Source: a virus. From it: DNA of 24,255 nucleotides. Below the pieces are notes generated by a model that saw only the letters and a program-made list of their open reading frames with translations, did no database searches and was not told the origin of the DNA. This document shows positions 1-23,476 of this stretch, in pieces (positions within the stretch are counted from its first letter, which is position 1; every line of letters starts with the position of its first letter). The position numbers were made by a program, and so were the translations under genes. The stretch lies in the IMG/VR virus record IMGVR_UViG_3300046655_000618, positions 1 through 24,255 of that record. The stretch is one strand, 5' to 3'.

Positions 1-3000
1 GGCGATGTAAAAGGGAATGTTTATGCATCAGATGATACAAGTATTATTTTAAATGCAGGCACTAATGGCAACGATGCAATATTCAAAGGTGACGTTTATA
101 GTACAACTGATACATTAATCATAGACAGTGGTGCAAGTATAGACGATGCAACATTTTATGGAAATATAGATCTTAGAACAGAAACAAATTACGGAAATAC
201 TCCAAGCACAGGTACTACTTCATACTTTAACAATTTAGATGTTGCCGGTACACTATCAATGGCAAATGCTTCAATAGGCACACTGTCTGGTAACTTAGTT
301 GGAGATATATATGCGTCTAACGGAACAAGTTTAATATTAGACAATGGTACTAATGGAACAGATGCATCATTCCAGGGTAGTATTAAAAATGACAACGGAA
401 CAGTAATTATTCAAAATGGTTCGACAGGAGTTGCAGCAACATTTACTGGTAAATTAGTAGGTGATGTAGATAGTAGCGGCATATCATATTTTAACAATAT
501 GTATGCTAACGTTATTAACGCATTCTTAGACGGTGACATTTCGGGTAGTGTACTAGGCGAAGATAGTGTAATGATGCTTGACGCCGGCGCTAGAACACTT
601 AGCGTTACTGATGTGCAAACAAGTACAATTACTGCATCATCTTACCTATCAGGCGATGTGCGCGGCGATATTTACAACGATGACGGCACTCAAAAAATAT
701 TAGAGACAGGCGGCACAGCAACAAATTCTGCTATCTTTACTGGTAGAGTTGATGCGTCAACTGCAACTAACACAACATCTAACTTTAACAATGTTGACGC
801 AACAGGTATATTTACTGGTGTATTAGGCGCAGTAGGTAATACTGCTAATGCATTTGTGAATGATCTAGCAGTAGATAGCATAGCAACATTTACTGGTGTT
901 GTTAATGCTCTTACATCAGCTGTTAATATTAATTCTGTAAACATAGATGGCGGAACAATAGACGGAACAGTTATTGGCGCAGCGACTCCAGCAGCAGTCA
1001 CAGGTACAACTGTAACTGCAAACACAGGATTTGTTGGTGATATCACAGGTGACATCACTGGAGACTTAGACGCAAGAGGTCTAGGCGGTACAACGTTCAT
1101 TGATGATTTAGTTATGGGTCCAGGCACAAATGCTGCTATAGATACTGCAACAATTACTACACTTAATGCTTCTACTCTTGTTCTAACAAACTTAGCACTA
1201 AGTGGAGATTTAGACGTACTTACTGGTACAGGTACATTCCAAAACTTAGAAGTTACTGCTGGCGGCAACATTGTAGGACTTGCTACTCTAGGTACAAGTG
1301 CATCACCAGTAGCAAGTTCAGTAATTACTACAATTGATGTTAGTGCAGGTGATATAGTTGGCCTGTCTACTCTAGGTACAAGTGCATCACCAGTTGTAGC
1401 AGCAGACATAAACACTGCGGTTATAGATGATGTAACTAGTGTTACAGTAAGAGCTGATAACTTTACTATTACTAATACAGGCGATGCTGCTCATAAGTTC
1501 ACTGGTCCGTTAGAAGGTAATGTTACAAGTGCTGGAACAAGCACATTTACTGGTACAGTAAACTTATCAAGTGCATCTGTTGTACTTGCTGATAACCAAC
1601 TAAGTGGTGATAAAATAGACGGTGGTGTCATAGGCAACGCTGATCTGTTAGGCAACGGAACAGGTAACACAATTAGCGGATACGATATCACAGTAACAGG
1701 AGCACTTGACTTAACTGGAGCAACTGTAACATACGATAACGATTCGATATCAGGTGATAAAGTATCTGGCGGTACTATTGATTCTGCAAATATAACTGGC
1801 GCCGCAGGTAAAACACTTGACGGATATGATATTACCGTAGGTTCTGGCAGAACATTAACTGTAGACGGAGCAACAAGTGTTGCAACATTAGCAGCATCTG
1901 CACTTGCAGAATTAGACGGCGGTTTCAACGTTAATGACGACTTTGTTGTAGATGTAGATGGTAACACACGTCTTAATGCAGCAGCTAATTTTGAAATTTG
2001 GAATGCAGCAGGAACACCTGTAAAAGTATTTGATATTGTTGGTTCAACAGGCGCAACTACTATTACAAATACCTTAGACGTTGTTGGTCCAGTATCTATA
2101 ACAACAGGAACAGGAAGCACAAGCACATCTACCGGTTCACTTATTGTTACTGGCGGAGTAGGCATAAGTGAAAATGCATTTGTCGGAGGCGATCTAGATG
2201 TTGCAGCAAATGCACAACTTGGCGGCACTTTAGATGTTGACGGCGTAACAAATATTAATAATACATTAACTGTAGATTCGTTAGCAAGTTTAGACGGCGG
2301 CATTGCAGTATCAGACGGTGCAGTAGGCGATGCATTTACAGTTGCAGTTACTACAGGTAATGTAGTAACAACAGGCACATTAGATGTAACAGGTTTGTCA
2401 TCACTAGATGGCGGCATTGATGTTAACGGGTCTAACTATACAGTATCAGCAGCAGGCGCAGTAACACAAGCAAGTACACTAGATGTAAGTGGAGATGTTA
2501 CACTATTACAATCTGCAAACTTTGAAATCTTTGATGCAGGTGTTGGTAGTAATTCTACATTTGCTATCAATGGTGCTGATGGTAATACACAAATAGCAGG
2601 TACGTTAGGAGTAGACGGCCTAGCATCGTTAAATGCAAGTTTGACTGTTACTGGACTTACAACAACTGATACAGCAGTAGTTAATAACACTCTTGATGTA
2701 ACTGGCGCAACAACATTAGACGGAACATTTGCTGTACAAAATGCAGGTGTAGATGTATTTACAGTCGCTGATGCAACAGGAAATACAGTAATTTCAGGAA
2801 CACTTCAAGCAGGTAATACTACTGTAGCAGACGTAACTGCAACTGGAACTGGTACTGTAACTGGTAACTTTGATGTAAACACAACTGCATTTACTGTTGC
2901 AGCAGCAACAGGTAACACTGCTATACTTGGTGACTTAGCAGTTAATACAACAGCTCTTACAGTAGCAGCAGCAACAGGTAATACTACAGTAGGCGGAACA

Positions 3001-6000
3001 TTTGATGTAGCAGGTGTTACAAACTTTAACGATACTACAGGAAGCACATTAAGTACTAATGGTGCAGTAATAATTGACGGCGGCCTAGGCGTTGCAGAAA
3101 ATATTAATTTTAGCGGTGTATTAAAGACAACAACCGCAACAGCAAGTACAGATACCGTAACAGGATCAATTGTTACCGCAGGCGGCGTTGGTATAGCAGG
3201 CGCTTTAAATGTTGGTGGTGTAACACATATTTCTCAAACAGTAGATGCAACTTCAGCAACTGATGGTGCGTTGTTCGTAGACGGTGGCGTTGGCATTGCT
3301 AAGAAACTATTTGTTGGTACTGATTTAGATGTAACTGGTTCAGTACAAATTGATACAGATCTAAATGTTACTGGAAATACTGTAATAACAGGAAATCTAA
3401 CAGTTAACGGCGCAAGTACAACAATTAATGCAGCAACACTAGATGTTGAAGATAAAGATATACGTGTTGCAAGTAATGCAGATACACTACTTGGAGCAAA
3501 TAATGCAGGCTTAATAATTGGTAGTACTAATGTTGGTGATATAGCAAATGGCGGCAACGCAGGTGAAACAAATGTTACATTTACATATAATGCTACAGAT
3601 GATAGTTTAGACAGTAATGTCGATATACAAGCGCCAACATTTATTGGTAATTTAACAGGCGATACTACAGGAAGCGCAACTATAGGTGTTGGCAAAACTC
3701 TTGACGTAGACGGAGCATTTAATGTTAATGCAAGTTCTGGTAATTTAGATAATGTAGTAATTGGCGGAGTTACTAGAGCAGATGCAAGTGTACATACTCT
3801 AACTACAAGAAACATTAATGTAGATTCAGGATACGATGTTACCCTTGCAAGCGGAGATGTTACAATTACTGCTGGTGACTTTGTTGCAACAACAGGTAAT
3901 ATTAGTGCAACTTCAGGAACTATATCCGGTGATATATTTGTTGCAGGAACAGAATTTAGAGGCGATTTAACAACTGTAGACGGCGGTACTGGTGTTAACT
4001 TATTTGAGTCAACAGGCGTAGCAGTAAGTACAGGTAACATTACAACTACAACAGGTGACTTTACAAGTACAAGCGGAGACTTTACTACAGGCTCAGGAAA
4101 TATTTCAACAAGTAGTGGTGATATTACTACTACAACTGGTGATATTAATGGCCAAATTATTACCGCTAACACTAAGGTTATAGGACAACTAGGTACTGAT
4201 GCAAGTACAGCAGCAGACATGAATGATGCGTTTGTAGCAACACTTTATTCTAATACAACTATAACATCAAGTGGTAATACAAGTGTAGGAGGCAACCTTA
4301 CAGTAACAGGTACTTCTGACTTTGATGATGCTGTAACTATTTCAAATAACTTAACAATTAGTGGACCAGGAGGCGTTGATGCGCAGGGCAATCCAAATAA
4401 ATCTACAGCGACATTCCAAAACATTGTTGTTACAGGATCATTTACAGTTGATACTCTAACAATTGATGACTTTACTGTTGGTGATGAATTATTTGTGTTA
4501 GGTGATACTGCACTATCAGGCAACTTAACAGTTAACAGTGGTGTAACAACATTAAGCTCAGTTGATATTGCAGGCGGTGCAATAGACGGTGTTACAATTG
4601 GCGGCGACGGTGTAACACCTGCTGCAAATATCACAGGTGCTGCGTTAACAGGTACGTCTTTGACTACTACAACAGGTAATATAGTACTAAACAGTGGTAA
4701 CTTAGTTGCTACACAGGGTAATATTACAACTACAGCAGGTGAGATAAGATCACCAGTTGGTGGCTTTGTAGGTCAAATTGATGCTACTGCAACAGGTACA
4801 TCAAGTTTTGACAATATCTTAGTAAATGATGATTTAACTGTAAACGGTAAAGTATTTTCAGTAGCAAGTGCTGCAAGTGGATTTGTTGGAGATTTATATT
4901 CTAACAATTCAGGTGGCACTCCAATAAAAATTCTACAAGCAGGTACTACACTAGGCACTGCAATGTATACTGGTAATGTTACTGGTGTTGTAGGCGATGC
5001 CGCAAACAGAAATACTGCTCACTTTAGTACAATAAACGCAACACAAGCTGATTTAGCATCTGTTGATATAAATGCTGGTACAATTGACGGAGTCACATTT
5101 ACAGCAGGTACATTAGTAGATACACCAATTGGACAAACAGGAACACCACAAAACGCTACAGTAAGTAATCTTGTAAGTAATACAATTAGAGTTAACAGCA
5201 GCACTGCAAATACTATAGACGGTGTTACAATTGGTGATACACAGCGTAGACCAGGTAACTTTACTACTTTAAATGCAAACACTAGTATTACAGTAGGTGC
5301 AGTAGCAGGTAGTATAAACTCAACACCAATTGGTGATAGTATTGCATCTACGATAACAGGAACTACAATTGCAGCGTCTACAAGGTTTGAAGGTGTCCTT
5401 CAAGGTGATATACAATCAACATCAGGTGGTGTTGGATTACCTGCAGGTGCATTATTAATAGATTCAAGTACTAGAAATATTTCTAATATTGTCGATTTTA
5501 CCTCAGAAACTGTGCAAGCAACAACAATCACAGCTACCCAAACAACAAATGGTTTCCAAGGTGATTTAACCGGTGATGTAATAGGACAAATTGGTACAAC
5601 AACACTTTCAGATAGAAACAACGCATTCTTCACCAATGTAGACATATTAGGCGATCTTGATATAGATGGCGACATTACACTTGCAGCGACACATACAATT
5701 ACTGGTATAATAGACGGATTAGCTGGTACAGATATAACAGGTGCATTTACGCTTGAAACAGGTCAAACAGCAGACTTGTCAGGCGGTACACTAACACTTG
5801 CTAATGATCAAATTAGTGGCGACAGCATTGAAGGCGGCACCATAGGTAACATTACTATAAGCAATCTTACTTCGCCTAACATAATTATTACTGGTGGTAC
5901 ACTCCAAGGCGTTGATGCAACAAGTTTCGATATCGATGGCGGCACTATTATTAACACTTCAATTGGTCAATCTGGTTCTGCACAGAACATTAAAGGTGCT

Positions 6001-9000
6001 ACAATCGAGTCTACTACTGGATTTGTAGGACAAATTAATGCTACTGGTGGCAGCGGAGGTACATCAAACTTCGATATAATTACTGTTGCAGGCACAAGTA
6101 CATTTACAGGAAATGCAACATTTGGCAATTTAAGTGGTGCGCTTACAGGATCATTTACCGGCGGCGCAACTATTACAAGTGGTACATTTAGTAATATACA
6201 AATTGCAAGTTCTACACAAATTAATTCTTCGGCATTTATTGGCCCATTGTCAGGTGATGTTACCGGCGGCGGAACAGGCACAGTTAGTACCTTTAATAGA
6301 TTAAACGTACAAGGTGGCCCAACAGAAGCTTCTCAAATATCAAATCTAACTGTGGGTACGTTTGCAACTAACGCTGCAACAATTACTGGTGGTAATATTA
6401 CAAACACTACTATCGGTGGTGCAACTGGTACAGGTAGTTTCCCAGGATACTTTAGTTTAGTAGAAGCAACAGGCGCTATTACAGCAGGAACACAGTTTAT
6501 AGGAGATATGAATAATCCTAATACTGTTAACCAAGATGATTCATCAGCTGACTTTACACAAGGTTATTTTACTAACTTACGAGTTAAGAATTTTGAAACT
6601 GATACTATCATAATTAACAGTGACCAAGAATTTAGTAATGTTTTGATTACTGGTGACTTAACAGTAAACGAAGATGTGCTAATAAAAGGCGATTTAGAAG
6701 TTGAAAAAAACTTTATTACAGTTAACAAAAACGAAACAGGTAATTCGGGTATTAGTGGCGCTGGTAACGCAGGTATAATTTTTGAACGTGGTAACGGTGT
6801 TGGTATACAAGATGCAAGTCTTATATTCAGCGAAAGCGGCGGCAATCCTGAATATGAATTTAGTCAATTTAAAGTTCTTGCAGAAGAATTTCAAGCACCT
6901 TTATTTTCTGGAAACATTACCGCAGTCTTAGGTACCTCTACATTTAATAATGTTACTGTAAGTAACTCTGCTAACTTAGGAAACAGCGTTACTATCGCTG
7001 GCGGCAATATAGATAATACTGTAATAGGTAATGGAACTCAAGCAAGCATCGACGGTACGACAATTAAAGCACATGTTGAATTCCAAGGAGACTTAGATAC
7101 TACTAACGGTGTTACTGGAAATATTGATACCATTACAATGGATGCAACTGGACTTATTACTGCACGAGCAGGTCTTGATGCAACTGGTGGAACAATTGAC
7201 GGTGAAGGAAGATTTACTACAGGTACAACTATTGACGCTGGTACACATATTAGAAATACACCAATTGGTGTTGACGTAAGCGGTATAAGTGGTAGAGCAG
7301 TAGGTTACTTTAATGCCTTAGAAGCTACTACAATTATTAGTACACTGGGTATAACTGGCAATATTACTGGAGATGTAACAGGTAGTATTGATGATAGAAA
7401 TACAATCGGTGAAGTTCCTTTAAATCCGCCTGTCTTGACAGAAAACTTAAATATGAATCTATCGCAATTTGATAGAGTAAGTGTACTAGGTCATCTTACA
7501 ATGGGTACAGATACATATATTAAAGCTGTTAACCTAGATGTTTCTGGTATCTTTAATGTTAACGATTTAGATATCGGTGCTACACTTGATGTTGCTGGTA
7601 ACTTTACTGTAGGTAGTGGAACACCTAAAAAATTAGATGTCAATGCTGCTACAGGTGCAATGACACATAATGGTGCATTTACAACGTCTGGAACTGCAAC
7701 ATTTGATGGTGATATTAATGCAAATGCTAATGTAACAGTAGGCAGCGATGCAGCAGACGAACTTATTATAAATGCTGTAATCGATAGCGATATTTTAATT
7801 AAAACTGATGGTGCTTATGACATTGGTACAGTTTCAACACGTTGGGGACATGTATATGCTGATAATGCAACATTTACAGATGATGTTGCTATAGGTGGAA
7901 ATTTAACAGTTACAGGATCAGTAACCCAAACTAATGTTGATCAAATCAACATTGCAGATAACATAATTGTTCTTAACGGACAAGAATCATCAACTCAAAT
8001 TTCAGCAGGTACTGCTGGTATACAGATTAGTAGAGGTACTGGAAGCGATGCATCGTTCTTGTATGATGAAGGTTTAAATTCCTGGACACTTACAGGTGCA
8101 ACAAGTAAATTAACTGTTAATGAAGTTAGAGCTGATATTGAAGCCACTGACGGAGCAACTATAGTAGATATTTCAGCAAAATCAATTGATATGTCTGCTG
8201 TTGATACAGATGCGTTAACAGTAAATCAAGGCGCAACGATAGGCACAACATTAGTAGTTAGCGGACTATCTACACTTGCAGAAGCAAAAGTACAAGACTT
8301 AGCACAAGATCATATTCCATTAGCAGGACTTGACGGTAGACTTAACACAAATGCAAACTTTAGATTTGACGGCGTTGATCTTGATATAGGTGCTGCTGGT
8401 TCAGAAACATTTAAAGTAGCAGTTGCATCAGGAAACACTGACATACAAGGTACACTTTTTGTAGATAAACAAACTACTATAAAAGGCAATAACCTAGGTG
8501 CAAGTAGTACAACAACAGGTGCATTAGTAGTTCAAGGCGGTATTGGTATATCTGAAAATATACATGCAGGAGGCACTTTAACATTAACTGGACTTGCATC
8601 ACTAGCATCTGGTATAAATGTTAATAATGATTTTGTAGTAGATGCAGACGGCAATACTGACTTGTCAAGTGGTGCAACACTAACAGTTGACGGTGAAGTA
8701 AACTTTAATGGCGGTATTGTAATGGATACTGACAGGTTTACTGTAGCAAACGGTTCAGGTAACGTTGCAACAGCTGGTACGCTTCAAGTAAGTGGAAATA
8801 GTATACTAACAGCACTTATTACATCAGGAATAGCTTCATTAAATGGAGGCATTGAAGTAGACATAACGAAGTTTACTGTAGACGGCGGCACAGGCGCTGT
8901 TGTTACACAAAGTACTTTAACAGTTGACGGTACAACTACGCTTAATTCAGATCTATCTGTAACAGGAAGTAACGATATAAGAATAGTTGACGCTCTTACT

Positions 9001-12000
9001 GCAAATGTATTTGAAGTAAACGGAACAACAGGCGCAACATTAATTACAGGTAACCTTACAATGGACGGATCTGTAGGCGCAGGCAATCTTGACATAGGCG
9101 GTAACTTTACAGTAGCAAATGCAACAGGTAATACAGACATAACAGGTACATTAGATGTAACTGGTGATACTACAGTAGATGTGTTTAGTGCAGGTACAAG
9201 TACATTAGGTACAACCTCTATCACTGGCACAACTCTATCAGTAGGTTCTGACTTTACTATAATAGGAGCAAGCGGTGTAACTGAAATAGGTGGTATGTTA
9301 AGTGCAGATGGCGGTATTCAAGTAAGAAATACTGCTAATACTGCTGAAGCATTTACTGTTTCACTTGGCACAGGTAATACTAATATAGTAGGTACACTTG
9401 ATGTAACTGGTACAACTACTGTACACGATTTAAATATTACTGGTGCATTAGGTGTAACAGAAGGACTAACAGTAACCGACGACTTTAGTGTTAATGGAAA
9501 CTTTGTAGTAACTGCTGCAAATGGTAACACACAAGTTGACGGAACTCTTACAGCAGACGGTGACTTTAACATTAACAACCAGTTTACTGTAACAGCAACT
9601 ACAGGCGCAACGAATATTGCAAGCGGTCCGTTAACAGTTGGCGGATTAACTACACTTAACGGTGGTATTACAGCAGACGGTGGTGTGTTTACCGTAGCAG
9701 ACGGTACTGGTAGTATTGCTACAAGTGGCACGTTAAATGTAACAGGTGCTACAACTTTAAGTAGTGCATTGAGTGCAGACGGCGGCATCGAAGTAAGAAA
9801 CACAGGCAACACAGCAGAAGCATTTAGCGTACAAGCAGGTAGTGGTAATGTAGATACTGAAGGTACATTGGATGTAGGTGGTGATGTTACTATAGGAGCT
9901 AACACAGTTACTATAGACGCTGGAAACGGAAATACAATTATTGCCGGGACATTAAATGTAAATACAAGCGCAACAGTAGCATCGTTACGTGTGTCAGACT
10001 TAACTACAGTTAATGCTGTATTACTTGGCCAATCATCAGGCGAAGTTGCTGATAGTTCAAATCTAACATTTAGCGGTAGTTTACTTGATGTAACAGGCAG
10101 TATTGACGTATCGGGCAATGTAGATATTGCAGGAAATGTATTTGCTAATAATGCTTATATAGAAACTTTAAATGTTAACGAAATACCAGTTACAGGAAGT
10201 GCTGGGTTAATTACAGGTTCGAGTGCATTTACATTTAATCCAACAGGTGGTATATTAGGTGTAACTGGTAGTATAACTACAACTGGCACTGTAACTGGTT
10301 CGACTTTCTTAGGAAATATTACTGCTCCGGGAACAAGTACATTCTCAGGACAAACAAACCTAAACGGTCTAGTTACTTTAGCTAACAATTTAACAATAGG
10401 TGCAGGTGTAGGTAGTATTAACGCAACTAGTGGTGCTATTGCAACAAATTCAACAATAACAGCAGGCGGCTTAGCAAGTCTAAACGGCGGCATTAATGTT
10501 GATAGTGGTGCATTTACTGTATCCGGAGACGGCTTTGGTAGTGTCTTTATAGACGGTCAAACAAATATTGATAATAATTTATTAATTACAAGTTCTGGAG
10601 ATATTACACTAAGTGATGGTGTATCTACTGTAATTACACTAGATGGCGCAACTGGCGGGATTAGTGCAGATGGTAATTTAAACATTGCAGGTAATACTAA
10701 TCTTTACGGTAGTATTACAAGACTAGGTAATGCTGTATCTGATGAATTAGAAATTAACTCTGTACTAACAAAAGGCTTTTATCTAAAAGCAGGTACATTA
10801 AACGCAGATATAGGTAGTACGACTACAAGATTTGCTGATGCGTTCTTAGAAAATTTAAATGTATCAGAGAATGTTACTATTGCAGGTGATTTAACTGTAG
10901 AAGGTGAATTTACAACTGTAAATGCACAAACTGTTGCTATAGCAGATAATATTATTACATTGAACTCAGGTCAAGCAGCAGCAGATGCAGGAATTGAAAT
11001 AGATTTATCTGGTACTACAAAAGAACTAAAATGGGCTAATACTGCTGGTGAATGGACAGTTGGTGCAGAAACATTTGTAGCAGGAGCATTTAGAGGTGAC
11101 TTACATGCAAGTGATAGCGCTGTATTAGTTAACCAAACAACTAAAGCAGTAGATGTTGCAACTGTAACTACAAGCGCAAATACAACAGTAGGTGGAATAC
11201 TTGCTGTAAATGGTACAAACTTAAATGTTGGTTCAGGAAACTTTGTTGTAACAAGTGCAAATGGTAACACTGATATTGCAGGTATACTTAATGTAGGTAG
11301 TAGTAACTTTACTGTACAACCGGGATCAGGTAATACATTAGTTGCTGGTACATTAGGTGTAACAGGTCTAACAACTATAGATACATCAACTGTTACTGGT
11401 GTAATGAATATTACAAGTTCAGTAGAATCAACTGGAACAACTAATGGTGCTATTAAAATACTAGGTGGTATTGGTCTATCTGGTAACATACACATGGGCG
11501 GCAACTTACATGTTGGCGGTACAATTAACGCAACAAGCGGTACTATTACTGGAACTACTTTAGGTAGTACATCAAGTAGAGTTACAATAGAAGCTGATAA
11601 CATCGGTGTTAGTGGTCTAATTACAGGTGACATTAGTGGTTCTATAACAAGTAGTAACGTTACAATTACTGGTGGTACAATTAATACTACGCCAATCGGT
11701 GGCGCAAGTGCTGCTACAGCAGATGTTATTAGAGGTACTGTAATCACAGCAGAAACTAACTTTGTTGGAAATATTACAGGTAACGTTACATCAACTGGTA
11801 CATCTACATTCGATGGCATAGACGTAAGCGGCGGCGAGATAGACGGTACAATAATAGGTGGTAACGATCCTGCAAACATAACTGGTTTGGTGATTGAAGC
11901 GGACACAGAATTTAGAGGAAACATTGTTGCTGCATCAGGATCAAGTTCATTTACAGATTTAACTGTAAATGGAAATATTACCAACACAGGTTCGACAAGT

Positions 12001-15000
12001 ACTGCAACGTTTAGAGATTTAAGTGTAGTTGGTAACTTTGTTCCTAACGCTCTTAATGTTACTACTGATGCAGACATAGGCGGCAACTTAACTGTTGGCG
12101 GCACTGCACAGTTTGACACAACTCTATTACAAGTTAATCAAGCTGCAACAGGCGCACCGGCAGGTTCACTAACAGCAGGTATTGAAGTAAGTAGAGGTAG
12201 TTCTCCAGCTAAAAGACTTAACTGGGACGAAGGTGGATCGACATGGACAGTAAGTACTGAGAAATTTACAGCAGGTACATTCGAAGCTACTACTACAATT
12301 ACTGCCCCAACTGTAACTGCTGATGTAACTGGTGACTTAACTGGTCTAGCAGATAGAGCAGATAAATTAGAAACAACAAGAACAATTGCGTTAGCTGGCG
12401 ATGTTGCAGGTAGTATTGGATTTGACGGTACTTCAAATGTAACTATCAATACAACAATACAACCTAACAGTGTAGATATTGTTGCAGATACAACAGGCGA
12501 TTATGCAAGAACTGTAACTGTAAGTGGCAATGGTTTGTCAATTACTGGAACACAGGGACACGATATAGCTTATGAAGTAATATCAAATGCAGTTTCAACT
12601 AACACAGCAAGTACAATAGTATTTAGAGATGCATTTGGTGCATTTAATGCAGGCGACATAACAGGTTCGCTTATTACTGCTAACACTAGATTAGACGGCA
12701 TTACAAGAGGTAATGTACAATCTACTGCTGACGGTGCATTTGCAGCAGGTGTTACACTTGTAAATGCGGCAGACAGAACATTAGATAATATTAAAGATAT
12801 CACTTCTGAAGATGGTACATTTGATACAATCGACATTAATGGTGGTAATATAGACGGTACTGTAATCGGTAGCGCAACACCAGCAGCAGGTACGTTCCTT
12901 GCAGTAGAAGGTACAACTATTGAAGCAACAACAGGATTTACTGGAGATTTAACAGGCGATGTGCTTGCAAGTGATGCAAGTGTAATACTTAATCATACAG
13001 CAAAATCAGTTAATGCAACAAACTTAGATGGTATACTAGGTGCTAATACAGCATCGGCTGCAACAGTAACAACACTAGCAGCAAGTGGCGCAGTAACTCT
13101 TACAGCAGGCACAGCATCTAACTCAACTACAACAGGTACACTTGTTGTAACAGGCGGTGCAGGCGTAAGTGGCACAGTAAGTGCAGGACAATTTGTTGGT
13201 CCTGTACAAGGTGCTTTAGTTGGCACAGTTGGTGCAGGCGGAATTTCAAATAGAAACTCAGGTGAATTTACAACTGTAAATACTGATAGTAATGTTGTAG
13301 TTGGCGGATCACTTACTGTTAACTCTGCAACATCAACATTTAGTACTGTTGATATTAATGGCGGCGCAATAGACGGAACACGTATAGGTGGTGCTACACC
13401 TGATAACGCAGACTTCTTAGATGTAGAAGGCACAACAATTACAGCATCTACAGGGTTTGTAGGTAACATTACTGCACCGTCAGGTGGTACAGTAGGAACA
13501 TCCACACTACATGATTTAGATCTACAAGGTGACTTAACTGTAGCAAGCGGAAATATTATATTTGGTGCCAACACTGTAATTGACAATAGTAGAAATGCTA
13601 CGTTTAATAACTTAACTGTACAAGGTACATTCTTACCAAACACATTAAATGTTACATCAACAGCCGTAATAGGAACAGACTTAACAGTTAATGGTGACCT
13701 TACAGTTAATGGTACAACTACAACACTTGATACTGATAATATTACACTAGCAGATAACACAATTGTACTGAATACAGGATATTCAGGACTATCAAATGGC
13801 GCATTTACATCAGGTATTGAAATTGACCAAAACGGTACATCAACAAGCCTACTATGGAACAACGGCACAAATACTTGGACAGTTGGTAATAAAAACTTTA
13901 CAGCAACTAGCTTTATTGCAACAACAGATTTCCAAGGTGCATTAGTTGGTAACGTTACTGGTAAAATTGGTGAAACTTCAAGAGACACAGGTAAGTTTAC
14001 AACATTGGATACAACCGGAACTGTTACAGTTGGTACAAGTTTAACTGTTAACGGAGGTGTTGCAACACTTGGCAATGTTGACATAAATGGTGGTAATATA
14101 GACGGCACTGTGATAGGTAATAATGTTCCAGCAACAGTTACTGGTACAACAATTACAGCTAGCCAATTTGTAGGTCCAGTTGACGGGCATGTAACAGGTG
14201 ACGTAACAGTAGAAGCAGGCGATACATTAAATGTAGACGGTATTGTAGATATTGATGCAAGCTCAGGTAATATGGATAATGTAGTTATAGGTGCAACAAC
14301 ACCAGTAGCTGGCACATTTACAACTATAACCGGTAACACAAGTATAACTAGCGGAGCTACAGGAACAGGACCAATTACTGGTGGTGTTATTACAGCAGCA
14401 ACAAACTTTGCAGGTGCATTAACAGGTGATGTAACAAGTTCAGGTACAAGCACATTTGAAATTGTAGAAATAGATACTAGTGCTGATATTCAAACACTTG
14501 ATGTACAAGCAGGCACAAATTTATTAGGAACATTAGATGTTACCGGCGCAGCAACATTTGTAAGTCAAGTTAATGTCGAAGATGATGTTATTACACTTAA
14601 TTCAGATTATACAGCTGGTGCTCCGTTAACAAGCGGACAGCAAGGTATACAAGTTCTTAGAGGTGATGAAAATACTGTAAGATTTGTATGGGTAGAAAGT
14701 CAAGATAGATGGGAAACACAAAATACTGATTTACGTGTAGGTGAGAATCTATCGGTTAACGGAACAATTATATCAACCGGCGGAGTTCAAGCCACACCAA
14801 TTGGCGATGTAAATCCTAATACAGGTAAATTTACAACTCTTGAAACAACAGGCAATGTAACTATTACAGGCGATATTGATCATACAGGTGACTTTGTAAC
14901 TACAAGTTCAGCAATTAAAATTGATAATGCTGAGTCTACAATGGGCAATTTGTTTGGTTCAGGTATTTATGTAGGAGCAGACGGTCTTTCAGGTAGACCA

Positions 15001-18000
15001 AGTATTATAGTTGGATCAAACAGTAAATGGGAATTTAACAGAGACTTTGTTGCAACTGCCGGCAGTCAATTTATAGGCGATATAACAGGCGATGTAACAG
15101 GTAACATTACATCGTCAGGCACAAGTACATTTAGTGGTACAGTTGATCTTAATGGTGCTACAGTAAACAACGCAGCATTTAACCTAGTTGGTGATCTTAC
15201 AGGTACAGCAGATGATGCAGATGCATTGTCAAGTGCTGTAACTGTTACACTAGCAGGAGATGTAGCAGGTACTGCAACCTTTACAAATGCAGGCGATACA
15301 GCAGCAATTACAACAGTTATCCAAAACGGATCAGTTGAAAATGGAATGTTAGCAGGTGCTATTACTAATGATAAGCTTGTAAATGATTCAGTAACTATAG
15401 GTGCAACTGAAGTAGATTTAGGCACAACTGTAACAGCATTTACAGGCCTAACTAGTTTAACTTCGACAGCAATATTTGGCGAGCTAGGTTCTCCTGCTAT
15501 AAGAGGTGACATTTACGCAACAGATATAAATGCTTCAAATACTGTTACAGCAGGTACATTTGCTGGTAATGTAAGTACATCTGGTACAAGCTTAATGGGC
15601 GCAACGATATTTAGTGGTAACGGAGTATTTAATGCAGGACTTACTGTTGCAGCAGGACAAACAGCAACAATTAACGGTGACTTAGACGTTAACGGAACTA
15701 CAACATTTGCAAATATTAGTGTTCCAGGAACATTTACTGCTGAGTCTACTGCTAACTTTAACACTGACTTTATTAAATTAAATGCACTAGGTACAGTGCA
15801 AAATGCAGGTATAACAATTGAGCGTGGGGCTACTGATGTTTCGTTCTTCTGGGACGAATCAAATGACAAATGGTCTATATCAAGTGAAACACTTGTAGCT
15901 GGTATGGTAGAAAGTGATGTAACAGGACATCACTATGGTGATGTAACAATTGCAGGTGGCGAAACTATTGATGTCAGTGCAGGTACAATAACTTTTGCTA
16001 ACGATCAAATCAGTGGTAATGCAATTAACGGTGGTACTATTGATGCTATTACTATTACAACATTAGCAGCATCGTCTGTAAACATAGACGGTGGTGCAAT
16101 TGACGGAGTTTCTATAGGTAACGCATCTAGAGGCACTGGTAAGTTTAGTACACTTGACGCAACCGGAGCAATTACTACTGACACTAATATCACAGCAACA
16201 GGATCAATAAATGGTGCAACAGTTGTTGCAAGCACATCAATGACAGCACCGTTATTTACAGGTGACGTAACTGGTGATGCAGATGGTGATCATACTGGTA
16301 CATTTACAGGTACAATGAGCGGTGCAATTGGCGGCGCATCAGACAGAAGCACTGCACACTTTAGTACAGTTGATGCATCTAATGCTACACTATCAAGTGC
16401 AGACATCAACGGTGGTACAATTGACGGTGTTGTTATTGGTGGCGCATCACCAGGCTTAATTACAGGTACTACTATTAATGGTACTACTATTAATGCAAGT
16501 ACATTTAATGGTAACATTAATGGTAATGTTACAGGTGATGTAACAGGTAACGTAACAATTCCAGTTGGTGATACACTATCAGTTAACGGTACATTTGCAA
16601 TTGATAATATGACAGTCAATCAAAACTTAACTGTAACAGGTGATATGACTGTAAACGGCACTACTACGTCTCTTAATACTGAAGAAATTAAACTTGCTGA
16701 CAACTATATTCTACTAAACAGCGGTACTAGCACAGCACAAAATGCTGGTTTAGAAGTTGATCTATCAGGCGGAACAACTAAGGCATTAGAATGGACTACG
16801 TCAGGCGGCGGCAGATGGAGTGTTGGATCTGAAGACTTTGCAGCAGCAAACTTTATTGGTGACGTAACTGGTGACGTAACTGGAAATGTAACAGGTAATG
16901 TTACTTCAACAGGAACTTCAACATTTAGTACTGTTGATATTAACGGCGGAAACATTGACGGAACAATTATTGGCGGCACAACTAGAGCTGAAATAACTGG
17001 TACAACAATTACCGCAGACACAAGATTCTATGGTCCATTAACTGGCGATGTATCTGGTAATGTAGTAGGTAATGTTACTGGCACAGTAAGTAGTATTGCA
17101 AATCACTCAACAACTGACTTATCAGAAGGTTCTAATCAATACTTTACAGATGCAAGAGCAAGAGCAGCAGTTAGTGTTACTGATACAGGCGGTGACGGCG
17201 GTCTTACTTACAATAGCACAAGTGGTGTGTTTACTTACACAGGTCCAACTGCATCAGAAGTAAGAGCACATATTACAGGAAGCACTGGTGTAACATTTAG
17301 TGGTGGTGCAATAAGTATAGGACAACCTGTTGCTACAACAGATAATGTTACATTTAACGATGTTGATGTTGATGGCGACTTAACTGTTGCAGGTTCGTTG
17401 GCATTTGGTACTGTTGAAATTACAAATAGTTTAACAGTTTCAGGTAATATAACTTCGCTAGAATCAGAACAGATAGCGTTCTCTGATAACTTTATACTAC
17501 TTAACGCAGTTCCGTCAGGTGATACACCACATGCAGGCGAAACAGCAGGTATTGAAATTGATAGAGGAACTAACTCCAACAAATTCTTTAGCTGGGACGA
17601 AACTGCTGATAAGTGGTCACTAGGCGGGGAAACACTTGTAGCAGGTACAGTTGAAGCTGACTTTACAGGTACATTAACTGGTAGAGTTAACCATGCAAGT
17701 GGTACATCAAACTTCCAAAACATTGATGCTACTGGCACAATTGAAGCTGATGGGGTTATAACTGGTAACGCTGGCTTCTCAGGAGACTTGACTGGTAATG
17801 TATCTGGTACAATAAATGATATTTCCAATCATACAACAACAGCATTAAGTGAAGGTACAAATTTATACTTTACAACTGCAAGAGTAAACAGTCATCTACT
17901 ATCAAACATTATTAATAACGTTATGCCAGCTGCTGGTACAGGTGGTACTTTAGACTTAGGTACTAATGCTCTAAGATGGAGAGATGGTTACTTTACTAGA

Positions 18001-18378
18001 GATGTTGTAGCAAACACACTTACTGCTGTAACTAAAAACTTCGTAATTGATCACCCAACTAAGGAAGATCATAAATTAAGATATGCATCACTCGAGGGTC
18101 CAGAAAATGGTGTATATGTAAGAGGTAAACTAAAAGGTGAAACTGTAATTGAACTACCTGACTATTGGACAGCACTAGTTCACGAAGAGTCAATTACAGT
18201 TAACTTAACAGCAAACCTTGGCTTCCAGCAATTATATGTTGAGAAGATAGAAGATGGCAAAGTGTATATTAATATTGCAGGGGCAGATATTGATGCAATT
18301 GATTGTTTCTATACAGTTTACGGTGAACGTAAAGATGTAGACAAACTTGAGATTGAATTTAAAAAGGACTCAGAATAA
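1..18378 (+). CDS. Giant modular tail-fibre-like structural protein, 5'-partial (at least 6125 aa)
   Basis: The frame is open from base 1 with no stop until TAA at 18376-18378, so the true start is upstream; the first in-window ATG (259) lies inside a repeat module and is not a credible start. The protein is a low-complexity mosaic rich in Thr, Ser, Gly, Asn, Asp, Val and Ala, and I noticed only one Cys, in the last domain. Recurring modules include DINGG-x-IDGT-x-IG followed by TGTTITA and GDVTGNVT, FTVA-x-ATGNT-x-I-x-GTLDVTG, GALVV-x-GGVGI, and ADN-x-I-x-LN...AGIEI-x-RG...WDE...W. An RW-type motif (LGTNALRWRDGYF, 17956-17994) precedes a globular C-terminal domain at 18031-18375 (KNFVIDHP, LRYASLEGPENGVYVRG, IELPDYW). 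These features are typical of marine myovirus fibre proteins; a beta-solenoid or trimeric beta fold is inferred. Role: probably a virion-surface adhesion fibre. A bacterial adhesin is unlikely next to phage neck genes. Confidence 0.85.
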   Translation, partial: GDVKGNVYASDDTSIILNAGTNGNDAIFKGDVYSTTDTLIIDSGASIDDATFYGNIDLRTETNYGNTPSTGTTSYFNNLDVAGTLSMANASIGTLSGNLVGDIYASNGTSLILDNGTNGTDASFQGSIKNDNGTVIIQNGSTGVAATFTGKLVGDVDSSGISYFNNMYANVINAFLDGDISGSVLGEDSVMMLDAGARTLSVTDVQTSTITASSYLSGDVRGDIYNDDGTQKILETGGTATNSAIFTGRVDASTATNTTSNFNNVDATGIFTGVLGAVGNTANAFVNDLAVDSIATFTGVVNALTSAVNINSVNIDGGTIDGTVIGAATPAAVTGTTVTANTGFVGDITGDITGDLDARGLGGTTFIDDLVMGPGTNAAIDTATITTLNASTLVLTNLALSGDLDVLTGTGTFQNLEVTAGGNIVGLATLGTSASPVASSVITTIDVSAGDIVGLSTLGTSASPVVAADINTAVIDDVTSVTVRADNFTITNTGDAAHKFTGPLEGNVTSAGTSTFTGTVNLSSASVVLADNQLSGDKIDGGVIGNADLLGNGTGNTISGYDITVTGALDLTGATVTYDNDSISGDKVSGGTIDSANITGAAGKTLDGYDITVGSGRTLTVDGATSVATLAASALAELDGGFNVNDDFVVDVDGNTRLNAAANFEIWNAAGTPVKVFDIVGSTGATTITNTLDVVGPVSITTGTGSTSTSTGSLIVTGGVGISENAFVGGDLDVAANAQLGGTLDVDGVTNINNTLTVDSLASLDGGIAVSDGAVGDAFTVAVTTGNVVTTGTLDVTGLSSLDGGIDVNGSNYTVSAAGAVTQASTLDVSGDVTLLQSANFEIFDAGVGSNSTFAINGADGNTQIAGTLGVDGLASLNASLTVTGLTTTDTAVVNNTLDVTGATTLDGTFAVQNAGVDVFTVADATGNTVISGTLQAGNTTVADVTATGTGTVTGNFDVNTTAFTVAAATGNTAILGDLAVNTTALTVAAATGNTTVGGTFDVAGVTNFNDTTGSTLSTNGAVIIDGGLGVAENINFSGVLKTTTATASTDTVTGSIVTAGGVGIAGALNVGGVTHISQTVDATSATDGALFVDGGVGIAKKLFVGTDLDVTGSVQIDTDLNVTGNTVITGNLTVNGASTTINAATLDVEDKDIRVASNADTLLGANNAGLIIGSTNVGDIANGGNAGETNVTFTYNATDDSLDSNVDIQAPTFIGNLTGDTTGSATIGVGKTLDVDGAFNVNASSGNLDNVVIGGVTRADASVHTLTTRNINVDSGYDVTLASGDVTITAGDFVATTGNISATSGTISGDIFVAGTEFRGDLTTVDGGTGVNLFESTGVAVSTGNITTTTGDFTSTSGDFTTGSGNISTSSGDITTTTGDINGQIITANTKVIGQLGTDASTAADMNDAFVATLYSNTTITSSGNTSVGGNLTVTGTSDFDDAVTISNNLTISGPGGVDAQGNPNKSTATFQNIVVTGSFTVDTLTIDDFTVGDELFVLGDTALSGNLTVNSGVTTLSSVDIAGGAIDGVTIGGDGVTPAANITGAALTGTSLTTTTGNIVLNSGNLVATQGNITTTAGEIRSPVGGFVGQIDATATGTSSFDNILVNDDLTVNGKVFSVASAASGFVGDLYSNNSGGTPIKILQAGTTLGTAMYTGNVTGVVGDAANRNTAHFSTINATQADLASVDINAGTIDGVTFTAGTLVDTPIGQTGTPQNATVSNLVSNTIRVNSSTANTIDGVTIGDTQRRPGNFTTLNANTSITVGAVAGSINSTPIGDSIASTITGTTIAASTRFEGVLQGDIQSTSGGVGLPAGALLIDSSTRNISNIVDFTSETVQATTITATQTTNGFQGDLTGDVIGQIGTTTLSDRNNAFFTNVDILGDLDIDGDITLAATHTITGIIDGLAGTDITGAFTLETGQTADLSGGTLTLANDQISGDSIEGGTIGNITISNLTSPNIIITGGTLQGVDATSFDIDGGTIINTSIGQSGSAQNIKGATIESTTGFVGQINATGGSGGTSNFDIITVAGTSTFTGNATFGNLSGALTGSFTGGATITSGTFSNIQIASSTQINSSAFIGPLSGDVTGGGTGTVSTFNRLNVQGGPTEASQISNLTVGTFATNAATITGGNITNTTIGGATGTGSFPGYFSLVEATGAITAGTQFIGDMNNPNTVNQDDSSADFTQGYFTNLRVKNFETDTIIINSDQEFSNVLITGDLTVNEDVLIKGDLEVEKNFITVNKNETGNSGISGAGNAGIIFERGNGVGIQDASLIFSESGGNPEYEFSQFKVLAEEFQAPLFSGNITAVLGTSTFNNVTVSNSANLGNSVTIAGGNIDNTVIGNGTQASIDGTTIKAHVEFQGDLDTTNGVTGNIDTITMDATGLITARAGLDATGGTIDGEGRFTTGTTIDAGTHIRNTPIGVDVSGISGRAVGYFNALEATTIISTLGITGNITGDVTGSIDDRNTIGEVPLNPPVLTENLNMNLSQFDRVSVLGHLTMGTDTYIKAVNLDVSGIFNVNDLDIGATLDVAGNFTVGSGTPKKLDVNAATGAMTHNGAFTTSGTATFDGDINANANVTVGSDAADELIINAVIDSDILIKTDGAYDIGTVSTRWGHVYADNATFTDDVAIGGNLTVTGSVTQTNVDQINIADNIIVLNGQESSTQISAGTAGIQISRGTGSDASFLYDEGLNSWTLTGATSKLTVNEVRADIEATDGATIVDISAKSIDMSAVDTDALTVNQGATIGTTLVVSGLSTLAEAKVQDLAQDHIPLAGLDGRLNTNANFRFDGVDLDIGAAGSETFKVAVASGNTDIQGTLFVDKQTTIKGNNLGASSTTTGALVVQGGIGISENIHAGGTLTLTGLASLASGINVNNDFVVDADGNTDLSSGATLTVDGEVNFNGGIVMDTDRFTVANGSGNVATAGTLQVSGNSILTALITSGIASLNGGIEVDITKFTVDGGTGAVVTQSTLTVDGTTTLNSDLSVTGSNDIRIVDALTANVFEVNGTTGATLITGNLTMDGSVGAGNLDIGGNFTVANATGNTDITGTLDVTGDTTVDVFSAGTSTLGTTSITGTTLSVGSDFTIIGASGVTEIGGMLSADGGIQVRNTANTAEAFTVSLGTGNTNIVGTLDVTGTTTVHDLNITGALGVTEGLTVTDDFSVNGNFVVTAANGNTQVDGTLTADGDFNINNQFTVTATTGATNIASGPLTVGGLTTLNGGITADGGVFTVADGTGSIATSGTLNVTGATTLSSALSADGGIEVRNTGNTAEAFSVQAGSGNVDTEGTLDVGGDVTIGANTVTIDAGNGNTIIAGTLNVNTSATVASLRVSDLTTVNAVLLGQSSGEVADSSNLTFSGSLLDVTGSIDVSGNVDIAGNVFANNAYIETLNVNEIPVTGSAGLITGSSAFTFNPTGGILGVTGSITTTGTVTGSTFLGNITAPGTSTFSGQTNLNGLVTLANNLTIGAGVGSINATSGAIATNSTITAGGLASLNGGINVDSGAFTVSGDGFGSVFIDGQTNIDNNLLITSSGDITLSDGVSTVITLDGATGGISADGNLNIAGNTNLYGSITRLGNAVSDELEINSVLTKGFYLKAGTLNADIGSTTTRFADAFLENLNVSENVTIAGDLTVEGEFTTVNAQTVAIADNIITLNSGQAAADAGIEIDLSGTTKELKWANTAGEWTVGAETFVAGAFRGDLHASDSAVLVNQTTKAVDVATVTTSANTTVGGILAVNGTNLNVGSGNFVVTSANGNTDIAGILNVGSSNFTVQPGSGNTLVAGTLGVTGLTTIDTSTVTGVMNITSSVESTGTTNGAIKILGGIGLSGNIHMGGNLHVGGTINATSGTITGTTLGSTSSRVTIEADNIGVSGLITGDISGSITSSNVTITGGTINTTPIGGASAATADVIRGTVITAETNFVGNITGNVTSTGTSTFDGIDVSGGEIDGTIIGGNDPANITGLVIEADTEFRGNIVAASGSSSFTDLTVNGNITNTGSTSTATFRDLSVVGNFVPNALNVTTDADIGGNLTVGGTAQFDTTLLQVNQAATGAPAGSLTAGIEVSRGSSPAKRLNWDEGGSTWTVSTEKFTAGTFEATTTITAPTVTADVTGDLTGLADRADKLETTRTIALAGDVAGSIGFDGTSNVTINTTIQPNSVDIVADTTGDYARTVTVSGNGLSITGTQGHDIAYEVISNAVSTNTASTIVFRDAFGAFNAGDITGSLITANTRLDGITRGNVQSTADGAFAAGVTLVNAADRTLDNIKDITSEDGTFDTIDINGGNIDGTVIGSATPAAGTFLAVEGTTIEATTGFTGDLTGDVLASDASVILNHTAKSVNATNLDGILGANTASAATVTTLAASGAVTLTAGTASNSTTTGTLVVTGGAGVSGTVSAGQFVGPVQGALVGTVGAGGISNRNSGEFTTVNTDSNVVVGGSLTVNSATSTFSTVDINGGAIDGTRIGGATPDNADFLDVEGTTITASTGFVGNITAPSGGTVGTSTLHDLDLQGDLTVASGNIIFGANTVIDNSRNATFNNLTVQGTFLPNTLNVTSTAVIGTDLTVNGDLTVNGTTTTLDTDNITLADNTIVLNTGYSGLSNGAFTSGIEIDQNGTSTSLLWNNGTNTWTVGNKNFTATSFIATTDFQGALVGNVTGKIGETSRDTGKFTTLDTTGTVTVGTSLTVNGGVATLGNVDINGGNIDGTVIGNNVPATVTGTTITASQFVGPVDGHVTGDVTVEAGDTLNVDGIVDIDASSGNMDNVVIGATTPVAGTFTTITGNTSITSGATGTGPITGGVITAATNFAGALTGDVTSSGTSTFEIVEIDTSADIQTLDVQAGTNLLGTLDVTGAATFVSQVNVEDDVITLNSDYTAGAPLTSGQQGIQVLRGDENTVRFVWVESQDRWETQNTDLRVGENLSVNGTIISTGGVQATPIGDVNPNTGKFTTLETTGNVTITGDIDHTGDFVTTSSAIKIDNAESTMGNLFGSGIYVGADGLSGRPSIIVGSNSKWEFNRDFVATAGSQFIGDITGDVTGNITSSGTSTFSGTVDLNGATVNNAAFNLVGDLTGTADDADALSSAVTVTLAGDVAGTATFTNAGDTAAITTVIQNGSVENGMLAGAITNDKLVNDSVTIGATEVDLGTTVTAFTGLTSLTSTAIFGELGSPAIRGDIYATDINASNTVTAGTFAGNVSTSGTSLMGATIFSGNGVFNAGLTVAAGQTATINGDLDVNGTTTFANISVPGTFTAESTANFNTDFIKLNALGTVQNAGITIERGATDVSFFWDESNDKWSISSETLVAGMVESDVTGHHYGDVTIAGGETIDVSAGTITFANDQISGNAINGGTIDAITITTLAASSVNIDGGAIDGVSIGNASRGTGKFSTLDATGAITTDTNITATGSINGATVVASTSMTAPLFTGDVTGDADGDHTGTFTGTMSGAIGGASDRSTAHFSTVDASNATLSSADINGGTIDGVVIGGASPGLITGTTINGTTINASTFNGNINGNVTGDVTGNVTIPVGDTLSVNGTFAIDNMTVNQNLTVTGDMTVNGTTTSLNTEEIKLADNYILLNSGTSTAQNAGLEVDLSGGTTKALEWTTSGGGRWSVGSEDFAAANFIGDVTGDVTGNVTGNVTSTGTSTFSTVDINGGNIDGTIIGGTTRAEITGTTITADTRFYGPLTGDVSGNVVGNVTGTVSSIANHSTTDLSEGSNQYFTDARARAAVSVTDTGGDGGLTYNSTSGVFTYTGPTASEVRAHITGSTGVTFSGGAISIGQPVATTDNVTFNDVDVDGDLTVAGSLAFGTVEITNSLTVSGNITSLESEQIAFSDNFILLNAVPSGDTPHAGETAGIEIDRGTNSNKFFSWDETADKWSLGGETLVAGTVEADFTGTLTGRVNHASGTSNFQNIDATGTIEADGVITGNAGFSGDLTGNVSGTINDISNHTTTALSEGTNLYFTTARVNSHLLSNIINNVMPAAGTGGTLDLGTNALRWRDGYFTRDVVANTLTAVTKNFVIDHPTKEDHKLRYASLEGPENGVYVRGKLKGETVIELPDYWTALVHEESITVNLTANLGFQQLYVEKIEDGKVYINIAGADIDAIDCFYTVYGERKDVDKLEIEFKKDSE
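1283..1394 (+). repeat. 28-bp exact direct repeat, period 84 bp
   Basis: Bases 1283-1310 and 1367-1394 are identical over 28 bp (starting CTACTCTAGGTACAAG), an offset of exactly 84 nt or 28 codons. The encoded units are IVGLATLGTSASPV and IVGLSTLGTSASPV. This is the longest exact in-frame tandem repeat I noticed, and it looks like a recent unit duplication. Confidence 0.85.
1850..11400 (+). repeat. FTVA-x-x-TGNT-x-I-x-GTLDVTG module family in three blocks inside the giant gene
   Basis: About twenty copies of a 25-50 residue unit (F-[TV]-V-x-x-x-x-GNT-x-I-x-GTL-x-V-x-G, often with LDGGI-x-V before it). They are concentrated at about 1850-3050, 8400-10030 and 10460-11400, for example near 2335, 2755, 2887, 2953, 8410, 8737, 9103, 11239 and 11308. 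Copies interleave with GALVV-x-GGVGI units. The block near 9100-9970 is the most regular. Low-complexity coding repeat; no separate gene. Confidence 0.75.
2134..13200 (+). repeat. G-[AST]-L-x-V-x-GG-[VI]-GI module family (7 copies) inside the giant gene
   Basis: Short motif, typically preceded by ST-x-TG and followed by a helix- or turn-like stretch and L-x-VGG. Copies begin near 2134, 3061, 3163, 3262, 8518, 11446 and 13135; three lie close together at 3061-3310. A similar motif recurs in fibre-like proteins of marine T4-like phages. It appears to mark boundaries between FTVA blocks and other modules. Confidence 0.7.
3394..17660 (+). repeat. AGIEI-x-RG ... W-x-x-x-x-x-x-W module family (about 10 copies) inside the giant gene
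   Basis: Module of about 75-90 residues: LTVNGTTT, then ADN-x-I-x-LN, then AGIEI-[DE]-RG, then L-x-W-[DN]-E and W-[ST]-[VL] with E-x-[FL]-x-AG. Copies start near 3394 (divergent), 6655, 7900, 10888, 12082, 13678, 14551, 15673, 16639 and 17431. They hold nearly all the tryptophans of the protein, so they are probably small folded domains spaced along a repetitive shaft. The neighbouring fibre gene carries one more copy near 19100-19320. Confidence 0.8.
18031..18375 (+). other. C-terminal globular tip domain of the giant fibre protein
   Basis: About 115 residues that break from the repeat composition. They are richer in Lys, Glu, Tyr, Leu and His, contain the only cysteine I noticed in the protein (AIDCFYTVYGE) and end in charged FKKDSE. 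The stretches KNFVIDHP, LRYASLEGPENGVYVRG and ELPDYW resemble a C-terminal domain I recall from cyanophage and other phage fibre proteins, where it follows an LG-x-x-x-x-RW motif as here. Its position suggests a fibre tip, a trimerisation or folding domain, or a receptor-contact domain. I see no basis to choose among these. Confidence 0.6.
18364..18368 (+). promoter_or_regulatory. Ribosome binding site for the second fibre gene
   Basis: AAGGA lies 10 bases before the ATG at 18379, within the last codons of the giant gene. The two genes abut (TAA immediately followed by ATG). I see no late-promoter-like TATAAATA between them, so co-transcription is likely. Confidence 0.6.
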
Positions 18379-20861: not shown

Positions 20862-20869
20862 ACAAGTAA

Positions 20870-23433: not shown

Positions 23434-23438
23434 ATACA

Positions 23439-23459
23439 TATTTATCGTTACGATAAATA
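23439..23459. promoter_or_regulatory. Perfect inverted repeat forming two divergent T4-type late promoters
   Basis: Arms TATTTATCG (23439-23447) and CGATAAATA (23451-23459) are exact reverse complements around a 3-base loop TTA. Each arm reads outward as GATAAATA, one base from the T4 late promoter core TATAAATA. The plus arm continues as CTATA, also like the longer T4 consensus TATAAATACTATT. With T4-like spacing, the plus start would be about 23464-23465, just before the gp13 ribosome site, and the minus start about 23433, at the gp14 ATG. The palindrome could alternatively be a protein operator or a cruciform. Confidence 0.6.
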
Positions 23460-23465
23460 CTATAC

Positions 23466-23470
23466 GGAGA
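23466..23470 (+). promoter_or_regulatory. Shine-Dalgarno site of gp13
   Basis: GGAGA is followed by 6 bases and then ATG at 23477. It is the strongest ribosome site in the window and fixes the gp13 start. The divergent gp14 has none. Confidence 0.75.
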
Positions 23471-23476
23471 TTTCAT

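Follow-up and report, generated by a model that had tools for sequence, protein, structure and literature searches.

The closest described system is the long tail fibre of phage T4 (gp34, gp35, gp36 and gp37), which is likewise fibrous and built of a modular shaft and a terminal tip. This fibre is about 145 nm long and is shared by four proteins, the largest of 1289 aa (PMC5537660, PMC3004832). gp37 has 1026 residues and gp34 has 1289 (PMC5537660), the latter extending over 700 A (PMC3004832), with residues 744-1289 spanning just over 30 nm and a triple beta-helix domain at residues 900-1127 (PMC5537660). Very long phage proteins, some of them tentatively structural, come from a survey of huge phages (Al-Shayeb et al. 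2020), which gives proteins of up to 7,694 amino acids (PMC7162821). Appendages of another kind are found on jumbo phages: Atu_ph07 has 'hairy' whiskers that seem to be associated mainly with the capsid, and the tail whiskers of CBB measure 119 nm (PMC6102473, PMC5259590). Unlike the four-protein T4 fibre, the gene described here holds an N-terminal region, a shaft and a tip in one open reading frame, and its chain is seven times the length of gp34.

The DNA analysed (the window) comprises a virus record of 24,255 bases, and its first base is the first base of residue 3,146 of the full protein. Its plus strand is open from base 1 to a TAA that ends at 18378 and holds the 3' two thirds of the giant fibre gene, 6,125 of 9,270 codons (residues 3,146-9,270). 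The initial annotation had described an 18.4-kb open frame cut at the window edge, with the N-terminus missing. The open frame was confirmed, and the start was recovered in four longer contigs, where the whole protein has 9,270-9,511 residues and the length first given proves an understatement. These contigs were found by IMG/VR scans with the tip, the N-terminal part and a gp15-like neighbour: G001 (IMGVR_UViG_3300047450_000156, 61.9 kb), G002 (3300034341_000538, 69.8 kb), G003 (3300025751_000013, 109.9 kb) and G004 (3300049740_001473, 50.1 kb), together with two fragments, G005 (3300022921_000063) and G014 (3300022926_000191). In the four longer contigs the gene starts 9,435 bases before the first base of the window, adding 3,145 residues, and the surroundings of both start and stop are identical in all four. 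The complete open reading frame is 9,270 aa in G001, G002 and G004 and 9,511 aa in G003, for a gene length of about 28,000 bases (27.8 kb) and a protein of about 930 kDa (about 930-954 kDa across the two lengths) with one cysteine and a pI of 4.05. With this base composition, a stretch of 9,270 codons would be expected to hold about 670 stops, so chance does not explain the open frame. Of the five remaining frames of the full gene, four contain 646-1,127 stops and the fifth, an antisense frame, just 121. Many antisense open reading frames, of up to 486 aa, were also seen on the minus strand of the window (690-17828); these are probably a by-product of composition and not a sign of genes.

We consider it likely that the product of this gene, a single polypeptide of 9,270-9,511 residues, forms the shaft and tip of a tail fibre, most likely trimeric, on a T4-like and probably jumbo phage. 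The modular phage tail fibre is a known kind of protein, and the one described here is extreme in length. The initial comparison of its size with that of T4 gp37, put at about 1000 residues, was sound (1026 residues; PMC5537660). We infer the trimeric state, the place on the virion, receptor binding and a length of about 0.5 micrometre; as arithmetic on an analogy, 9,270 residues at the gp34 ratio would extend to about 500 nm, where the T4 fibre measures about 145 nm. In the literature searched, which included the huge-phage survey, the longest phage protein we found had 7,694 aa, a maximum that is compared with the 9,270-9,511 aa here by length alone; a longer one may exist elsewhere, and we claim no record.

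A gene packed with related modules invites the suspicion that several shorter fibre genes were collapsed or joined through their repeats during assembly, as does the presence of separate open reading frames at the same place in two sister contigs. The initial annotation had itself raised a collapsed or chimeric assembly, and as far as the assemblies tell the evidence goes against it. First, the four contigs, the window and the fragments G005 and G014 agree, and the gene is unbroken in contigs about 4% apart in protein. Protein identity is 99.97% among G001, G004 and the window; the difference from G001 is 3.9% for G002 and 4.5% for G003, and these two are 2.5% apart, giving three strain types with 95.5-97.5% protein identity. 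Second, dN/dS (Nei-Gojobori) was 0.12, 0.13 and 0.15 in the three informative strain pairs (the G001-G004 pair, with five differences only, is uninformative), which argues for a real gene and against a chimera. Third, purifying selection was seen in each full block of the gene: between G001 and G003, dN/dS per 500-codon block ranged from 0.04 to 0.36 in the 19 full blocks, outside which falls a last 11-codon block without synonymous change. The low values in every full block suggest that the gene is translated and constrained along its whole length. Lastly, a deeper lineage has an 8,782-aa chain that aligns through the joint at which the sisters' genes part. An assembly artefact is thus largely refuted and, in our estimate, highly improbable; as far as these assemblies show, the giant gene is real and not chimeric.

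Among strains, the length of the gene changes by in-frame gain or loss of whole modules. G003 carries an extra 132-residue module between 9192 and 9193 (plus strand), a 396-bp tandem copy with 91% DNA identity to the next copy over 339 bp. An extra 108-residue stretch of two IDGT-type units is present between 12327 and 12328 (plus strand) in both G003 and G005, the latter not extending to the site of the 132-residue module. Both of the extra stretches in G003 are in frame, and both are absent from G001, G002, G004 and the window.

The protein is laid out as an N-terminal region of about 280 residues, about 9,000 residues of recurring modules and a tip formed by the last 120 or so residues. The module kinds named in the initial annotation are real: each of four profiles matched repeatedly, and none matched in 20 shuffles of the protein. 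The profiles found 13 GIEI modules (module length 76 aa), 37 IDGT-IG, 33 FTVA and 31 GDVY/GDIY modules in 9,270 aa, covering 4,769 of the 9,270 residues; 10, 25, 24 and 9 of these, respectively, lie inside the window. The ten GIEI modules (3376..17643, plus strand; profile search) start at 3376, 6637, 7882, 10870, 12067, 13678, 14527, 15664, 16624 and 17413, with a consensus of about LTVNGTTTTLNT..I.LADN.I.LNS...AGIEI.RG...L.WNE..D.W.VG. The GDIYASNGT units that had been assigned to the first part of the window also exist, with their position corrected, as they lie mostly upstream of the window; of the nine inside it, five start in the first 220 or so residues and four are scattered. Assembly of the gene by duplicated and swapped modules, proposed at the outset, is supported by the module counts and by the 396-bp in-frame tandem copy in one strain.

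An AlphaFold model of a GIEI stretch (16564-16950) had a mean pLDDT of 83.8 and was mostly extended chain. Its residues 1-60 had pLDDT block means of 82-93 and no DSSP strand, as would be expected if the strands pair with other chains. When this monomer model was compared with 139 chains in VIA, the best match was T4 gp34 (4uxg, residues 896-1037), with 115 residues aligned at an rmsd of 4.5 and a Z of 4.9, a value in the range that may mean just a common arrangement. This weak alignment falls within the triple beta-helix domain, as that domain is delimited in PMC5537660. The other entries at Z >= 2 were VgrS (3.5), two of endoneuraminidase NF (3.1), the Bd2133 fibre (2.2) and a tailspike (2.0), and we take all six matched entries to be trimeric fibres or spikes. 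Foldseek against the PDB gave no significant match for the shaft model (best E 1.7), and a PDB sequence search with the shaft profile returned nothing credible and did not list the T4 fibres. No Pfam family reached its cut-off in the scanned slices of the giant, where sub-threshold matches to Bactofilin and EF_TS were disregarded. Hydrophobic autocorrelation along the shaft had no single strong period; its positive peaks were chiefly those at lags 12 and 8 (z 7 and 4), and it was negative at lags 1 and 3 (z -8 and -13). Among PHROG families, phrog_697 (structural protein, filed under 'head and packaging') matched five of six window slices and phrog_4549 (tail fibre) the sixth. A megablast of the window against 50,697 phage records found no match, and a shaft slice of 1,000 residues (281-1,280) gave one weak match to a phage record.

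The C-terminal tip region lies at 17956..18375 (plus strand), with a beta-sandwich predicted at about 18109-18330. It matched phrog_17490 and phrog_28536 (function unknown; E 6e-36 and 2e-35) and represents a SLEGPE-type family with 23 invariant columns in 52 sequences. When IMG/VR was searched for the tip family, there were 239 pattern matches, 216 of them relatives, from which 80 were fetched and 40 examined; the domain was at the extreme C-terminus in 40 of 40 loci. Of the tip open reading frames in these loci, 31 extend past the locus edge, and in 21 a simple pattern picked out one of the module motifs. The earlier reading of an unusually long, fibre-like appendage gene is supported by this constant C-terminal position and by the structural and tail-fibre family matches; no result favoured the surface coat that the initial annotation had named as an alternative. 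The tip model had a mean pLDDT of 74.7 over all 140 residues and is confident at about residues 51-130 only. Its best VIA match was the tailspike of cyanophage Pam1 (rmsd 2.3 over 68 residues) at a Z of 8.3, which again may mean just a common arrangement, followed by other phage tailspikes and fibres at Z 5.6-6.5, with the Klebsiella phage K64-1 depolymerase, AP22 gp53, Sf6 and R2 pyocin at 5.7-6.5. Snail H-type lectins matched at Z 5.2-5.3, and near these lower matches stood rows that are neither fibres nor lectins, namely ZapD (5.1), an endospore appendage protein and a rhamnogalacturonan lyase (both 5.0). No Foldseek match of the tip model to the PDB was significant (best E 0.075), and a PDB sequence search with the tip found nothing credible. 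The last 258 residues matched 117 phage records, 99 of them Synechococcus phages, with 39-54% identity among the 40 matches listed. Proteins that share the tip include one of 587 residues in Flavobacterium phage immuto, annotated as a 'putative tail fiber-like protein' (most of the others being 'hypothetical'), and the tip also ends a 3,487-aa open reading frame in the 735-kb phage LR756501.

At the other end of the protein, the first 280 or so residues are conserved, with 52-54% identity in two sister lineages and 54% in a third relative, G029. Residues 112-198 match the tail-fibre family phrog_9851 (E 3e-8). The N-terminal 280 residues had no match among the 50,697 phage records, and the PDB sequence search with this region gave nothing credible. 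Upstream of the giant gene are five small genes, some of them weakly matching structural proteins, and a second giant open reading frame; no baseplate gene was recognised among the upstream neighbours examined.

Downstream, the start codon of a second fibre-like protein of 683 aa (18379..20430, plus strand) directly follows the stop of the giant. Of the two GIEI modules in this protein, one is clear (residues 236-304, E 1e-26) and the other weak, and its C-terminus resembles phrog_6427 / 22593 and has 68% identity to the end of a 233-aa protein in the sister contig G007. It is followed by a NUDIX hydrolase (20427..20894, minus strand; PF00293, E 8e-15), a T4 gp15-like tail sheath stabiliser (20870..22282, minus strand; PF16724, E 3e-26; phrog_11196, E 1e-75), a virion structural protein (22282..23439, minus strand; phrog_11591, E 1e-87) and a head-tail adaptor (23477..24235, plus strand; phrog_211, E 2e-32). 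NUDIX also stands beside gp15 in G003, in the sister contigs G007 and G008 and in Pseudomonas phage Cassandra, and G003 encodes sheath, tube, terminase, portal and major head protein as well. Of the 98 records that match gp15, 15 cover at least 80% of it, at 31-35% identity, and its full-length relatives among isolates belong to the jumbo phages Phosso, Atu_ph07, the PA5oct group and SCTP-2, with genomes of 285-490 kb. Judged by these sequence comparisons, the phage is T4-like and probably jumbo. The largest contig, at 109.9 kb, is a fragment (IMG/VR class 'linear'), and with gp15 relatives of 285-490 kb the gene would take perhaps 6-10% of the genome, which qualifies the initial statement that it would fill a large share of a typical T4-like genome.

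Tip and gp15 occur together elsewhere. Nine of 14 tip contigs tested for gp15 matched at E <= 0.001, and in the five strongest (from IMG/VR, two of them 372 and 383 kb) the tip open reading frames are 850, 1,208, 1,794, 2,224 and at least 2,754 aa, the gp15-like gene lies about 8-24 kb from the tip open reading frame, and NUDIX adjoins gp15 in three of the five. Conversely, 43 of 80 gp15 loci have an open reading frame of at least 900 aa. Among the 21 of those frames that were compared with the giant, that of locus L013 alone matched its first or last 300 residues; the remaining ones appear by eye to be mostly another family, loci L014 and L015 being uninformative (neighbouring open reading frame only). 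A scan of genome contigs yielded two further ones, L244 (PBPT01000016.1, 335 kb) and L245 (PBPT01000082.1, 153 kb), from a MAG filed as Candidatus Neomarinimicrobiota, with a gp15-like protein at 59% identity; these are possibly phage contigs binned into the MAG, not proof of a host.

The gp15 relatives also bring in a different reading, in which the giant chain would be a whisker of the head or tail shaft, like the decorating hairs on jumbo phages CBB and Atu_ph07, and not a receptor-binding tail-tip fibre. Both of these phages are among the records matching gp15, whiskers are described on both (PMC6102473, PMC5259590), and phrog_697 is classed with head and packaging proteins; set against this are the tip domain, which is modelled as closest to a tailspike end, the homologues that end in S74 and the tail and neck genes next door, the last not decisive. 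We regard a whisker as unlikely, though the most serious of the alternatives, and favour a tail fibre.

S74 is a chaperone domain of fibres and tailspikes that is known to cleave itself off. As in S74-terminated fibres and endosialidase-type tailspikes (PF13884), the homologous chains of G007 (3300028388_004500), G008 (3300007609_000014) and G029 (3300000425_000002) end in S74; the window's chain differs in that no S74 stretch was found and it ends in another domain. The open reading frames at the same place are of 6,200, 2,243 and 4,681 aa in G008 and of 1,188, 4,822, 2,893 and 233 aa in G007. The break between the 1,188- and 4,822-aa frames was not counted as a gene boundary, as it looks like a frame change within a stretch that G008 encodes as one gene, and may be a sequencing error or a real break. 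Residues 1-2,027 of the giant match the first open reading frame of G008 (44%), residues 6,908-7,504 its last part (41%), residues 7,538 onward the sisters' next gene from its residue 49 (45% in G007), and residues 8,770-9,270 the end of the 2,893-aa frame of G007 (50%). For residues of about 2,080-6,180 there was no co-linear sister match above 110 bits, and by sequence these look lineage-specific. Peptidase_S74 (PF13884) ends the homologous first chains of G007 (E 5e-13) and G008 (E 8e-15), and is followed by a stop and a new start; at this one-chain joint (13075..13179, plus strand) the window's chain continues, with 33 other residues between 7,504 and 7,538.

It could be that the giant is a polyprotein, cut after synthesis into two or more fibres and so mimicking the split genes of its sisters, given that G007 and G008 encode the two halves separately and that the first half ends in the self-cleaving S74. 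A profile built from three relatives, however, found no S74-like match in the 9,270- or 9,511-aa chain, Pfam scans of the window slices, tip, upstream slices and joint gave no PF13884, and no Pfam family reached its cut-off in the slices scanned. We judge such processing to be quite improbable and retain the single-chain fibre.

A third relative bears on how the two arrangements arose. G029 has one chain of 8,782 aa with its own S74 at the end (E 2e-16), and the other giant gene, next to it, encodes 5,602 aa. The alignment of the 8,782-aa chain passes through the joint (36% over 849 columns). The G029 contig ends short of the place of gp15, and no gp15 was found in it. When four proteins were concatenated (1,117 columns) and a four-taxon tree was built with G013 as outgroup, G008 and G029 grouped together in 98 of 100 bootstraps. 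The one-chain state is probably old and the split of G007 and G008 derived, since one split in their line needs fewer events than two fusions, which could also have taken place; this direction is limited by the repetitive modules and the four-taxon tree. A fusion of two sister genes in the window lineage is no longer favoured, because G029, which groups with G008, is also one-chain through the joint.

In the tail fibre that we favour, three chains would intertwine into a parallel trimeric beta-structured fibre. The N-terminal 280 or so residues would attach it to the virion, small beta modules totalling about 9,000 residues would form the shaft, and the C-terminal beta-sandwich would act as a distal tip that may start trimer folding, bind the host surface or both. 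The number of modules would set the length of the fibre, which in-frame duplication or loss would alter. Sister phages would make the homologous stretch as consecutive chains, the first ending in the S74 intramolecular chaperone, where the window's chain passes through. A bolder version, which we put forward only tentatively, is of a half-micrometre single-chain trimeric fibre, the longest phage fibre or structural protein that we found described, with its reach tuned by module gain or loss and its one- or multi-chain build switched by an S74 chaperone-stop-start cassette. The gene shows how far one phage structural gene can grow, and its relatives offer a natural series for the setting of fibre length, in which chains of 850 to 9,511 residues carry one and the same tip, strains lie one recent module apart, and one-chain and split versions both occur. 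A repetitive chain of about 930 kDa would here have to fold and trimerise without an S74 domain. A long reach could, speculatively, aid in finding sparse hosts or crossing thick capsules.

Other large open reading frames occur in these contigs and their relatives. The second giant frame just upstream is 4,957-4,959 aa long (4,253 aa in G008 and 5,602 aa in G029) and was located at 33952-48828 in G003 (L105-L106), at 9272-24145 in G002 and, in reversed-contig coordinates, at 9448-24327 in G001 and 16648-33456 in G029. It starts with MSTIRLKRSAEP in the copies printed, has long repeated units by eye and is unlike the fibre in composition; the two giants together occupy about 43 kb in G003. Beyond the head genes, G003 also encodes an endolysin-family protein with weak tail-fibre/lysozyme similarity (1-2355, minus strand) and an SbcC-like nuclease (8399-10171, plus strand). 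The 4,681-aa frame of G008, a third large one (50658-64703 in reversed-contig coordinates; part in L014), has repeats of the form '...DNGTKLFVLSQ...IHQF', which we take to resemble propeller-like repeats. A more distant relative, G013, has a giant frame of 5,511 aa at another place in its contig (6073-22608) with no strong fibre match, indicating that giant open reading frames recur in this group.
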